A stretch of 64,000 nucleotides of DNA from Acidobacteriota bacterium (GTDB taxonomy: Bacteria; Acidobacteriota; Terriglobia; Versatilivoradales; Versatilivoraceae): positions 157,940 to 221,939 of the forward strand of contig JAPPDF010000080.1 in the NCBI GenBank assembly GCA_028875575.1, read 5' to 3'. Position 1 is the first letter of the stretch. Each line of letters starts with the position of its first letter. The notes beneath the pieces were generated by a model that saw only the letters and a program-made list of their open reading frames with translations, did no database searches and was not told the DNA's origin. The translations under genes and the position numbers were made by a program. This document shows positions 4,631 to 56,937 of the stretch, one piece after another.

Positions 4631-4830
4631 GGGCGGCGCTCTCCAATCGGATGGGTCCGGAATTGGCCGGAGACCTGCAGCTCCGTCGGCAGGCCGTGCC
4701 TGAACGGGCCGGAGCGGCACATCTTCGAAATCTTATCACGGGAACTCCGGAGGCATCCGGGATGCGGGCACGTCGGCTTCGACCGGGCTTGGTGGCCAAC
4801 ACGCCGCCTTATGATTTGCCGGTATAATTT

Positions 4831-4983
4831 ACATGGATGAACAGGATATACAGGATTGTCTTTGGGAGTTGGGGGTCCTGCAATCCTGGCCATCCGCAAA
4901 CCCACACCGATTCATTCCTCCAGTGAACTTCTCCTGTAGCGGCTTCCCGTCCTGTTTATCCTGTACATCCTGGCCATCCATGT
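4831..4983. repeat. Palindromic ACAGGAT-type repeat element
   Basis: The left arm at 4831-4857 starts ACATGGATGAACAGGAT and continues with a second CAGGAT unit. The right arm at 4950-4983 is the inverted version, whose reverse complement starts ACATGGATGGCCAGGAT. The arms are about 27-33 bp and are separated by about 90 bp. The same unit recurs at 54983-55174 and 55608-55643 around the GxxExxY gene, so this is a dispersed family. Confidence 0.75.
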
Positions 4984-5075
4984 TCTTGATCATAGAGCTT
5001 TTTGCATAGTTCGCAGCGGGGCAGGTTATCTTGCCTGCAAACCTGAGATTCTGCCTTTTTCAATTTCAGGTTCAA

Positions 5076-5166
5076 CCTGGTGAAAAATGCCGCCCAACCA
5101 CAAAAAGCACAAAAGTCACAATTTGAGTTTTTGTGCCTTTTGTGGCCATTCCCGGCTAAACGCCCC
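5076..5166. repeat. Dispersed CACAAAAAGCACAA hairpin repeat, copy 1
   Basis: This stretch contains CCACAAAAAGCACAA and, about 30 bp later, TTGTGCCTTTTGTGG, which are inverted repeats with one mismatch. A second copy, including the flanking GGTGAAAAA and TGGCCATTCCCGG, is present at 58019-58113. Both copies sit in intergenic DNA. Confidence 0.75.
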
Positions 5167-53233: not shown

Positions 53234-54925
53234 ATGGCGACACGCAAGCTCATCGGACGGATCCTGCTGGACCGGAACCTGATCTCTCCCCCGGAGCTGC
53301 AGAACGGCCTGGCCCTGCAGCGGGAGCGGCGGGACAGGATTGGCCGCATCCTGCTGGACCTGGGATACCTCTCGGAACAGGACCTGCTGGCCGCCCTCTC
53401 GGCCCAGCACGGGACGGAGCTCATCCCGGCCAAGGACTTTCCGGCCGTGCCCCTGATGGTCGACAAACTGTCCCCCAAGTTTCTCCGCCAGTTCAGGATC
53501 CTGCCTCTGGACCAGGAGGACGGCGTGTTGACGGTGGCCATGGCCGATCCCTCCGACCGCAATACCCTGGAGTCCCTGCGCATGTTCACCGGGGTGGAGG
53601 TCCGGGTGCGCCTGGGCCGGGAAGCCGAGATCGACGAGGCCCTGGAACGGCTCTATGGGGGATCCGACGAGTGGGCCAAGGCGGTGCAGGAGTCGGACGA
53701 AGCTCTGGACGAGGCCGAGGGCATCGCCGAGAACATCGAGCAGCTTCGGGACATGGCTTCGGAAGTCCCGGTGATTCGCATGGTCAACCAGATGATCTCC
53801 CGGGCGGTGGAGCGCCGGGCCAGCGACATTCACCTGGAGCCCTTCGAGAAGGACTTCCGGGTGCGCTACCGGATCGACGGCATCCTGCATAACATGGATT
53901 CTCCCTCGCCCCAATTGAAGGCCGCCGTCATCTCCCGCCTCAAGCTCATGGCCAAGCTGAACATCGCCGAGCGCCGGCTGCCCCAGGACGGCCGCATCCA
54001 GCTCAAGGTGCTGGGAAAGGAGATCGATCTGCGGGTCTCCACCCTGCCCACCCTCTACGGGGAGAGCCTGGTGATGCGCATCCTGGACAAGAGCGACGCC
54101 AGCAGCTTCGAGCTGAAGCGCCTGGGGTTCCCCGACGACATCCTGGCCTCCATGGAGAAGCTGACGGCCCTGCCTCACGGCATTCTGCTGGTGACCGGCC
54201 CTACCGGAAGCGGCAAGTCCACCACCCTCTACAGCGCCATGAAGGGGATCAACCACCCCGACAAGAAGATCATCACCATCGAGGACCCGGTGGAGTACCA
54301 GATGAACGGGATCAACCAGATCCACGTCAACACCCAGATCGGACTCACCTTTGCCGCCGGCCTGCGCCACATCGTGCGCCAGGATCCCGACGTGATCATG
54401 GTGGGGGAGATCCGCGACCTGGAGACAGCCGAGATCGCCATCCGGGCGGCCCTCACCGGTCACCTGGTCTTCAGCACGCTCCACACCAACGACGCCCCCA
54501 GCGCCGTTACCCGGCTGGTGGACATGGGCGTGGAGCACTACCTGCTGGCCTCCTGCCTGGTAGGAGTGCTGGCGCAGCGGCTGGTGCGTGTCATCTGCCA
54601 AGGCTGCAAGTCGGGCTACGCCGGGGATGGGGACCGGCTGAACTCCCTGGGGTTTCCCCTCAACGGCGGCCAGGTCACGCTTTACCGAGGCGAGGGGTGT
54701 GAGTCCTGCGGCTTTACAGGGTACGAAAACCGTAAAGGAATCTTCGAGCTGATGCAGCCCGACGAGGAGATCCGCCGCATGATCGTAGCCAAGGAGGCCT
54801 CCAATGTCATCGGGCACTATGCGCGGCAACAGGGCATGAGGACGCTGCGGGAGGACGGCTTCGAAAAAGTACGGTCCGGTCTCACCACTTTGGAAGAGCT
54901 GGTCCGGGTAACGCAGGAAGTTTGA
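53234..54925 (+). CDS. gspE: Type II secretion ATPase GspE
   Basis: A 563-residue hexameric ATPase of the GspE/PilB family. N-terminal domains (about 1-150) begin LIGRILLDRNLI and are of the MshE-N type. The core has SDIHLEPF, Walker A GPTGSGKST (about 321-329) and DPDVIMVGEIRD with the Walker B/Asp box and the His of ALTGHLVFSTLHTND. A zinc site is formed by CQGC and CESC (about 455-495). It powers pseudopilus assembly at the inner membrane. GspF should follow, but a 797-bp insertion separates them. Confidence 0.96.
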   Translation: MATRKLIGRILLDRNLISPPELQNGLALQRERRDRIGRILLDLGYLSEQDLLAALSAQHGTELIPAKDFPAVPLMVDKLSPKFLRQFRILPLDQEDGVLTVAMADPSDRNTLESLRMFTGVEVRVRLGREAEIDEALERLYGGSDEWAKAVQESDEALDEAEGIAENIEQLRDMASEVPVIRMVNQMISRAVERRASDIHLEPFEKDFRVRYRIDGILHNMDSPSPQLKAAVISRLKLMAKLNIAERRLPQDGRIQLKVLGKEIDLRVSTLPTLYGESLVMRILDKSDASSFELKRLGFPDDILASMEKLTALPHGILLVTGPTGSGKSTTLYSAMKGINHPDKKIITIEDPVEYQMNGINQIHVNTQIGLTFAAGLRHIVRQDPDVIMVGEIRDLETAEIAIRAALTGHLVFSTLHTNDAPSAVTRLVDMGVEHYLLASCLVGVLAQRLVRVICQGCKSGYAGDGDRLNSLGFPLNGGQVTLYRGEGCESCGFTGYENRKGIFELMQPDEEIRRMIVAKEASNVIGHYARQQGMRTLREDGFEKVRSGLTTLEELVRVTQEV

Positions 54926-54934
54926 CGGCCCGCG

Positions 54935-55174
54935 CAGCCGCGTTCGCGACGGTGCGGATTAATCGAGACGGACTATTTATTGAACATCGATGCACAGGAT
55001 TAACAGGATGAGGAGCTGCTGCGAATGAAGCTCAGCGTAGAAAAAACATAAAGAACATGGATGGACAGGATGCACAGGATAATCAGGACGGGACGCTGCT
55101 GCCACGTCCGCGACGGGGAAGGTCAATCGAGAAGGACGACTAATTGAACATCGATGCACAGGATGTACAGGATA
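54935..55174 (+). repeat. Tandem copies of the ACAGGAT-type repeat before the GxxExxY gene
   Basis: AACATCGATGCACAGGAT occurs at 54983-55000 and 55147-55164, and a variant ACATGGATGGACAGGAT at 55056-55072. A longer flanking segment (CGACGG, AATCGAGA, ATTGAACATC) repeats at 54949-54983 and 55111-55147. The last copy runs into the GxxExxY coding start. The inverted counterpart is at 55608-55643. Confidence 0.8.
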
Positions 55175-55596
55175 AAGACAAACAGGATGAAAAGCTGCTG
55201 CATGAGAAGCTGACCCGTTCGATTATCGGGTGCGCGTTTGAGGTCATTAATGAGCTTGGGAGTGGTTTTTTGGAGTCCGTATATGAGAAGGCCATGATGA
55301 TTGCCCTCTCCGATGCAGGACTCTCTGTTGAGTGTCAGAAGCCGATCAAGGTCTTCTTTCGGGGGAAGCCGATTGGCGACTATTTTGCCGATCTACTCGT
55401 TGAAGAAAAGGTGGTGGTCGAACTCAAGGTCGTGAAAGCTCTCGTCCCGGAGCATGCGGCCCAGACCATCAACTACTTGAACGCGACTGGAATCCAGGTA
55501 GGACTGCTCATCAATTTCGGCAAACCCACTCTCGAATTCAAACGCTTTACCCGAAGCAACACGGATGAACAGGGCTTGAAGACGGCTGTCTCCTGA
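55144..55596 (+). CDS. GxxExxY-family protein inserted between gspE and gspF
   Basis: A 150-residue protein. The family motif GSGFLESVYEKAM is at about residues 39-51; DYFADLLVEEKVVVELKVVKAL has the Asp/Glu/Lys spacing of PD-(D/E)XK nucleases, though activity is unproved. HAAQTINYLNATGIQVGLLINFG is typical of the family. The first 16 residues (MNIDAQDVQDKDKQDE) are encoded by a copy of the ACAGGAT repeat, so the repeat provides the start; TTG at 55144 is the most upstream codon and the true start may be a little later. It is not a secretion protein. Confidence 0.88.
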   Translation: MNIDAQDVQDKDKQDEKLLHEKLTRSIIGCAFEVINELGSGFLESVYEKAMMIALSDAGLSVECQKPIKVFFRGKPIGDYFADLLVEEKVVVELKVVKALVPEHAAQTINYLNATGIQVGLLINFGKPTLEFKRFTRSNTDEQGLKTAVS

Positions 55597-55607
55597 AAAC
55601 AATCCTG

Positions 55608-55643
55608 TTAATCCTGTATATCCTGTGCATCGATGTTAATAAA
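55608..55643 (-). repeat. Inverted ACAGGAT-type repeat after the GxxExxY gene
   Basis: This sequence reads CCTGTTAATCCTG, then TATATCCTGTGCATCGATG, then TTAATA. Its reverse complement (TATTAACATCGATGCACAGG and onward) matches the copies at 54983 and 55147. The GxxExxY gene is therefore bounded by inverted copies. Confidence 0.8.
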
Positions 55644-55722
55644 CCATGCAAATGATGCCAATGATAACAGGACGGCTGACTCCCTGAATTATCCCAGTCC
55701 ATCGATGTGAATAAAACCCAGC

Positions 55723-56937
55723 ATGCCTACCTTCTTCTATAAGGCAGTCGGCAAGGACGGCGGGATCGTCAACGGGGTGGTGGAGGAATCCACCGACAGG
55801 GCGGCCGCCGTCAAGCTGCAGGACATGGGCCTGGTTCCCATCCAGCTCGGGACCCGGCAGAGTCGTCGCCTCTGGGACCTGGAGTTGCGCTGGAACCTGT
55901 CCGGCGTTCGCTCCAAGGACCTCATGTTCTTTACCCAGGAGTTGTCCACCCTGGTCAACTCCGGCCTGCCCCTCGACCGAAGCCTGGCCATTTGCAAGGA
56001 GCTTTCGGACAAGCAGCGGCTCCAGTCGCTGATCGACGAAATTCTGAAGGACATCAAGCGCGGCAGGTCCCTGGCGGACAGCCTCTCGTCCCATCCCCGG
56101 GTCTTCTCCAAGCTTTACGTCAACATGGTGCGAGCCGGAGAAGCCAGCGGAAGCCTCCCCCTGGTGTTGGAGCGCCTGGTGGAGTTCCAGCAGTCGGCCG
56201 ACGAGTTGAGAAGCTATCTCATCTCCTCGCTGATCTATCCGACCCTGCTGACCCTGGTCGGGGGAGCCTCCATCGTGGTTCTGCTGAACTACGTCATTCC
56301 CAAGTTTGCCGAAGTCTTTCAGGATGCGGGGCAGGCCATGCCCCTGCCGACGCAGATCCTGCTCTCCCTCAGCGAGTTCACCACCAGCTATTGGTGGATC
56401 ATCCTGCTGGGAGTGGCGCTTCTGGCAGGCGGGTTTTCCCGCATGGTGGCCAGCGAGCGGGGCCGGTGGTGGTGGGACCGGCTCAAGCTGCGGACACTGG
56501 TGATCGGCGAGATCCTGACCAAGGTGGAGATGGCCCGAATCTCCCGCACGCTGGGGACGCTGGTCCACAACGCCGTTCCGCTGGTGCAGGCCCTGGGCAT
56601 CGTGAGGGAAATCAGCGGCAATCGGGTCATCGCCCAGGCGATCCGCACGGTGGCCGAAGGGGTCAAGCGGGGAGAGGGAGTGGCGCTTCCCATGCGGCGA
56701 GCCCAGGTCTTTCCGCCCCTGGCCGTCCATCTCGTCGAGGTGGGCGAGGAGACGGGGCGCCTGGATGCCATGCTGCTGCGGCTGGCCGAGGTCTACGACA
56801 AGGACGTCCGCTCGGCGGTCAAGAACTTCATCGCCCTGTTCGAGCCGGTCATGATCCTGATCATGGGCGTGGTGGTCGGGGCCATCGTCATCTCCATGCT
56901 GCTCGCGATCGTGAGCATCAACGAAGTGCCTATTTGA
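55723..56937 (+). CDS. gspF: Type II secretion inner-membrane protein GspF
   Basis: A 404-residue GspF/PilC protein of normal length. An N-terminal YKAVGKDGGIVNGVVEESTD module is followed by two repeats of the helical GspF domain (FFTQELSTLVNSGLPLDRSL and ISRTLGTLVHNAVPLVQALG) and three membrane helices, the last LFEPVMILIMGVVVGAIVISM. It is the platform on which GspE acts. It begins 126 bp after the GxxExxY stop. Confidence 0.96.
   Translation: MPTFFYKAVGKDGGIVNGVVEESTDRAAAVKLQDMGLVPIQLGTRQSRRLWDLELRWNLSGVRSKDLMFFTQELSTLVNSGLPLDRSLAICKELSDKQRLQSLIDEILKDIKRGRSLADSLSSHPRVFSKLYVNMVRAGEASGSLPLVLERLVEFQQSADELRSYLISSLIYPTLLTLVGGASIVVLLNYVIPKFAEVFQDAGQAMPLPTQILLSLSEFTTSYWWIILLGVALLAGGFSRMVASERGRWWWDRLKLRTLVIGEILTKVEMARISRTLGTLVHNAVPLVQALGIVREISGNRVIAQAIRTVAEGVKRGEGVALPMRRAQVFPPLAVHLVEVGEETGRLDAMLLRLAEVYDKDVRSAVKNFIALFEPVMILIMGVVVGAIVISMLLAIVSINEVPI

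Follow-up and report, generated by a model that had tools for sequence, protein, structure and literature searches.

RAYT/REPIN systems comprise a gene between two inverted repeats and many gene-less hairpins in the same genome (PMC2817692, PMC8049555). The gene is often found at a fixed place, and the hairpins, which are scattered, are also retained in genomes that lack it (PMC2817692, PMC8049555). The locus described here shares this layout, as a gene for a GxxExxY protein lies between two inverted repeats that are also present as many hairpins in the genome. The GxxExxY family (PDDEXK_3; TIGR04256/PF13366) is listed without a role, and the papers we searched describe no link between GxxExxY proteins and inverted heptamer arms or hairpins.

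The insert between gspE and gspF

The window, that is the whole stretch of 64,000 nucleotides that was analysed (G000:C80:157940-221939), belongs to an assembly of 4.49 Mb in 101 contigs. In this genome the stop of gspE (54925) and the ATG of gspF (55723) are 797 bp apart. The region and one related element of the window contain the following features:

4830 to 4984 (C80:162769-162923), no strand: gene-less ACAGGAT hairpin of ~155 bp, an internal-deletion derivative (interior matches both gene ends)
53234 to 54925, + strand: gspE, the left host gene (ORF and stop; adjoins gspF with a 6-bp gap in G003)
54926 to 55722, no strand: whole insert from gspE to gspF (lacking in G003, reduced to a remnant of 263 bp in G001, complete in G006 and G002; drop in GC)
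54934 to 55014, + strand: leader and left arm, first copy of an 81-bp duplication (80% identical to 55098-55178)
55060 to 55090, + strand: second direct arm copy, ACAGGAT type (reading of the sequence)
55098 to 55178, + strand: leader and left arm, second copy of the 81-bp duplication, immediately 5′ of the gene (80% identical to 54934-55014)
55144 to 55596, + strand: GxxExxY gene for a predicted RecB/Cas4-like PD-(D/E)XK nuclease, with a TTG start within the arm (TIGR04256, PF13366, AF2 model and fold search, dN/dS 0.11-0.16)
55147 to 55176, + strand: left terminal arm of the gene-bearing unit, also coding for the first residues of the protein (93% complementary to 55608-55637; reading frame)
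55608 to 55637, - strand: right terminal arm, inverted (93% complementary over 30 nt to 55147-55176)
55689 to 55708, - strand: weak second copy of the right arm (80% complementary to 54984-55003)
55723 to 56937, + strand: gspF, the right host gene (ORF; 81-83% identical orthologues in four congeners)

The original prediction held that gspE and gspF are split by 797 bp with three direct copies of an ACAGGAT-type repeat, a GxxExxY gene whose first 16 codons are repeat sequence, and an inverted copy after its stop. All of these were located in the insert. Direct arm copies were found near 54983, 55060 and 55147. The reading frame of the gene enters from the left arm (TTG AAC ATC GAT GCA CAG GAT GTA CAG GAT ...) and traverses it, and therefore the repeat supplies the start region, about 16 codons, as had been proposed. 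Between 54800 and 55700 of the window, the G+C content drops from about 0.64 to about 0.48-0.55 across the insert. A search of the insert against Rfam matched no RNA family.

The 150-aa product of the ORF matched TIGR04256 (E 6.5e-43, 145.8 bits) and PF13366 PDDEXK_3 (E 2.9e-42, 144.2 bits). Since both scores exceed the curated cut-offs (35 and 22 bits, respectively), the protein is a member of the GxxExxY/PDDEXK_3 family. Residues G20, E23, Y26, D63, E73, K75, Q87 and Y91 were invariant in 19 sequences (G-x-x-E-x-x-Y; D, E-x-K, Q-x3-Y), and the window protein has the PD-(D/E)XK catalytic residues as well as the G-x-x-E-x-x-Y motif. Its AlphaFold model (pLDDT 90.7) has a predicted Cas4/lambda-exonuclease-like fold, with matches in the fold search to Cas4 SSO0001, LHK exonuclease, lambda exonuclease and MGME1 (4ic1 E 7.6e-5, 3syy, 3slp, 5zyv). 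The dN/dS was 0.11-0.16 for this gene family (A) and about 0.06-0.22 for two further families of the genus (B and D, see below), indicating that the protein is kept in working order by purifying selection. A sequence search of the PDB gave no solved homologue, and for the single gene of the unit Pfam gave no match other than PDDEXK_3. PADLOC had no match for the window protein and only a weak Cas4 match (E 0.014) for a relative; as this was the sole match, a defence role was rejected. We also rejected a phage origin, because no phage family in PHROG matched, viral contigs held one GxxExxY locus (L187, on an IMG/VR contig; relative 51% identical) and GxxExxY was rare on plasmids (seven records).

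The junction was then compared across the genus. In G003 the gap between gspE and gspF is 6 bp, which may be the ancestral state or the result of a precise loss. In G001 a 263-bp remnant is present that kept the arms and the start codons of the gene, while the gene itself is gone. The full module was found in the window genome (G000, 797 bp), in G006 (786 bp) and in G002, where the orientation is as in G000 and the left part is rearranged. These empty, remnant and full states support the earlier proposal of a putative insertion of a repeat plus GxxExxY module between gspE and gspF. A full gene of the ACAGGAT type was found at gspE-gspF only, in three species.

Hairpins and GxxExxY families of the genus

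The pattern ACAGGATNNACAGGAT occurred, with up to two mismatches, 140 times in forward and 137 times in reverse orientation in the genome, compared to 4 and 3 times for the reversed control pattern. This is far above chance. Arm sites of the ~155-bp hairpins amount to about 90 per strand. In all six congeners the numbers were similar, with 69-143 ACAGGATNNACAGGAT sites per strand with up to one mismatch (control 0-1), and few were present in genomes of other families. The hairpins themselves were read in about 470 kb, or ~10% of the genome, and the remainder was covered by pattern counts. In the stretches read, the sites mostly form head-to-head pairs ~115 bp apart, giving hairpins of 153-156 bp that run from AACATCGATG to CATCGATGTT. 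Likeness among the copies falls sharply at their ends, and some copies lie within larger repeats.

A consensus of 19 hairpins aligned over its full length with the GxxExxY element, apart from a central segment that is deleted. This 182-nt consensus, which folds with a continuous stem of 28 bp, is collinear with the first ~30 and the last ~12 codons of the gene, and therefore the hairpins are internal-deletion (MITE-like) derivatives of the gene unit. One of its frames reads LNIDAQDAQD*QDESFLHEKPARAMIRCGFADARD*KPAVS*KNPVHPVHRC, compared to LNIDAQD...QDEKLLHEKLTRSIIGCAFE and ...RDYKPAISRKNPVHPVHRC in the genes of G000 and G002. When matched to the gene ends, the interiors of 15 of 21 hairpins scored ~5 standard deviations or more above shuffled sequences. 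The gene-less repeat copy predicted near 4831-4983 proved to be one of these hairpins, and its interior resembles both gene ends (score 25, shuffled 14.7 +/- 1.5). Directly beside it, at ~4995-5160 of the window, lies a hairpin of the CACAAAA type whose left end resembles family B.

No target-site duplication was found at the family A hairpin boundaries tried. Two empty sites of A hairpins, in G005 and G004, correspond to composites of greater length (476 and 563 bp). The genomes of G001, G003 and G004 contain many A hairpins, and an A-type gene was not found in any of them. Several contigs of G012, a member of another family, have ACAGGAT hairpins that are short, their arm sites being separated by ~40 bp; the GxxExxY genes read in G012 have other arms.

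Four families of GxxExxY genes were found in the genus, namely A (ACAGGAT), B (CACAAAA), D (CACGAAT) and E (CACGAAG). The families are 29-46% identical to each other, and the copies read bear the motif of their own family. The expectation that other GxxExxY genes of the genome share the flanking repeat held in part. The second gene (on C99) lacks ACAGGAT but has an inverted motif of its own, CACAAAA, which was found 45 and 41 times on the two strands of the genome (control 0 and 0).

Family D is the clearest case of movement. Its unit of ~428 bp, with GxxExxY as the sole gene, was present at three unrelated sites, one common to L019, L253 and L256 and two others at L017 and L252. Between copies at different sites, homology starts with the first base of the GAACCAC arm. 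For L252 and L253 the match extends over 428 bp, up to the last base of the GTGGTTC arm, and some alignments of L017 extend 10-31 bp beyond that arm. At the L017 site, G004 has a deletion derivative consisting of an arm and the first codons, and G000 has a family-D remnant interrupted by a family-B MITE. In addition, G009 contains two GxxExxY copies that are 92% identical over about 400 bp and lie at unrelated sites. As judged from these alignments, the mobility of the GxxExxY-bearing unit is well supported. Movement of a gene-bearing module, as in the original prediction, is shown by the sister-family CACGAAT unit with its three sites; the full ACAGGAT gene was found at one site in three species, and its scattered copies are gene-less. 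At L333 (G000:C100), a family-B MITE that has a TCTT duplication splits a family-D GxxExxY remnant, which dates the order of the insertions.

Most family-B hairpins lie inside a MITE of ~195 bp with ends GAGCCTTTTGCAAAATTC and target duplications of 4-5 bp, and hence were spread by another transposase; GxxExxY-B itself was rejected as the spreader of most CACAAAA copies. The MITE flanks gave a k=4 identity of 0.59 compared to 0.31 +/- 0.036, and G003 has a clean 196-bp empty site. An example is L050:10957-11152, with the CACAAAA hairpin at its middle; 38 copies were present in the genus loci. In G001 (L188-L203), at least 40 dispersed C-terminal pieces of the family-B gene are bounded by CACAAAA arms, amid densely nested repeats that include tandem GATCATNCGAG units.

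Arms and proteins across phyla

We searched named genomes for the GPGLLE-type subfamily and used the best 80 matches, 78 of which gave usable loci. A strong inverted repeat surrounded GxxExxY in 59 of these 78 loci, compared to 3 of 624 equal-size frames elsewhere in the same loci. The sample covers more than ten phyla, archaea included (Acidobacteria, Planctomycetes, Chloroflexi, Verrucomicrobia, Proteobacteria, Cyanobacteria, Bacteroidetes, Omnitrophota, Spirochaetota, methanogens and others). When all three samples were pooled, 97 of 130 GxxExxY loci had the inverted repeat and about a quarter had no strong one. The usual arm consists of 2-4 copies of a heptamer (CACAGAG, CGCAAAG, CACGGAG, CGCAGAT or CACGAAT) with a period of 8-10 bp. 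The open frame begins in or 5′ of the left arm in 48 of 97 loci, and an extra arm copy was found nearby in 12 of 55 loci and in none for shuffled arms.

Similarity of the arms correlated with identity of the proteins (Mantel rho 0.46; maximum of the permutations 0.10). AG-type arms went with GxGLLE proteins in 63 of 64 cases and GAT/GAAT arms with GxGFLE in 11 of 12. This pairing is partly explained by co-inheritance of arms and gene. Arms that are alike across phyla at 50-60% protein identity suggest, however, that the non-coding sequence is constrained.

A proposed explanation and its comparison with described systems

We think it probable that the insert belongs to a family of tiny mobile units, in which a GxxExxY nuclease gene lies between arms, deletion gives rise to hairpins, and the nuclease is proposed to act on the arms. 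We base this on observations of the arms and boundaries of the units, insertions at several sites, derivatives formed by deletion, the pairing of arms with proteins, and purifying selection. The unit consists of a single RecB/Cas4-type PD-(D/E)XK nuclease gene between inverted arms built of ~7-nt motifs every 8-10 bp. It can be copied into new intergenic sites, and the gene begins within its left arm. Through internal deletions that retain both arms, gene-less hairpins arise, which were amplified to about a hundred copies in the way that RAYT amplifies REPINs. The nuclease would read the arms that belong to its own family, probably in the form of a folded hairpin (single-stranded or cruciform), and may nick or trim this hairpin, which could then be inserted elsewhere without a target-site duplication. 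Action of the nuclease on the arms, its role as the mover and the hairpin intermediate are inferred. Several findings count against this explanation, namely the many A hairpins in G001, G003 and G004, for which the search gave no A gene, the single site of the A gene, the composite nature of the two A-hairpin empty sites, the location of most CACAAAA hairpins in a MITE with target duplications, and the quarter or so of loci without a strong inverted repeat.

The same findings bear on the alternatives. Another enzyme, either a RAYT/IS200-type or a DDE transposase encoded elsewhere, could move hairpin elements that end in the arms, with GxxExxY as a passenger that, for example, controls or exploits the hairpins. 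The MITE carrying the CACAAAA hairpins and the A hairpins in genomes where the A gene was not found would fit this, but distinct GxxExxY families pair with distinct arms, also across phyla, the family-D unit contains GxxExxY alone with homology beginning at the arm end, and no target duplication was found for family A, so that we regard a mover of this kind as unlikely. Homing, in which the nuclease cuts an allele that is empty or carries a hairpin, at a fixed position, and the unit is copied in during repair, would spread the unit between alleles and not to new sites. It seems quite improbable: the restriction of the A gene to gspE-gspF in three species and the full, remnant and empty states of that site are as expected from homing, whereas the site is intergenic and outside any conserved sequence, family D occupies three unrelated sites, G009 has two unrelated copies, and hairpins are dispersed over the whole genome. 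A host housekeeping nuclease that processes or restrains hairpin or cruciform DNA, its gene lying among such repeats by chance, would account for the purifying selection and the exonuclease-like fold, but we consider it very improbable given a gene inside the arms that moves together with them, a patchy presence (24 of 41 relatives) and an arm motif that varies by family.

The small mobile unit with its own nuclease, our preferred explanation, suggests a type of mobile DNA element that is so far undescribed and present in many phyla. It is plausible, though somewhat less likely than not, that GxxExxY proteins in general move an ancient class of hairpin elements shared across domains, each subfamily reading its own heptamer arms. 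If the GxxExxY nuclease does the moving, it would represent a new enzyme class in DNA transposition, beside DDE, tyrosine, serine and HUH enzymes. The GxxExxY family is widespread in bacteria and archaea, CACAGAG-type intergenic repeats flank its genes in many phyla, and the link between them gives both a likely role, that of a nuclease-based hairpin mobile system similar to RAYT/REPIN. The natural arm-protein pairs, four of them in the genus, make specificity directly testable.

Among described proteins, Cas4, lambda/LHK exonuclease and MGME1 gave the best fold matches and share the conserved D, E-x-K and Q-x3-Y. In contrast to these, GxxExxY is only ~115 aa, with a TM-score to the query of about 0.5, and the window protein, being without a PADLOC match, does not qualify as a Cas4, which is defined by a profile match and a CRISPR context. 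As regards homing endonucleases, which cut the empty allele of their site so that repair fills it, the insert site is intergenic and family D lies at several sites. Like MITEs and short IS elements, the units have terminal inverted repeats, internal-deletion derivatives and nested insertions, and as in a MITE the 182-nt consensus represents a short gene-less element from a longer one. Unlike in MITEs, a fixed-length target duplication was not found for family A at the boundaries tried, though the outer MITE of family B has one, and unlike short IS elements the unit has no DDE transposase. For a transposon whose PD-(D/E)XK mover acts on its own ends, the arm-protein pairing offers indirect support. 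As in RAYT/REPIN, ACAGGAT hairpins remain in genomes where the gene was not found. However, the arms are arrays of ~7-nt motifs with a period of 8-10 bp and not GTAG-headed REPs, the hairpins retain pieces of the gene, and gene-bearing units move too. RAYT proteins are kin of IS200/IS605 (Y1/HUH, Transposase_17), whereas the only gene of the GxxExxY unit is PDDEXK_3, and this unrelated enzyme excludes membership in the RAYT family. By analogy, the best reading is that of a hairpin mobile system organised like RAYT/REPIN and apparently built on an unrelated RecB/Cas4-type nuclease.
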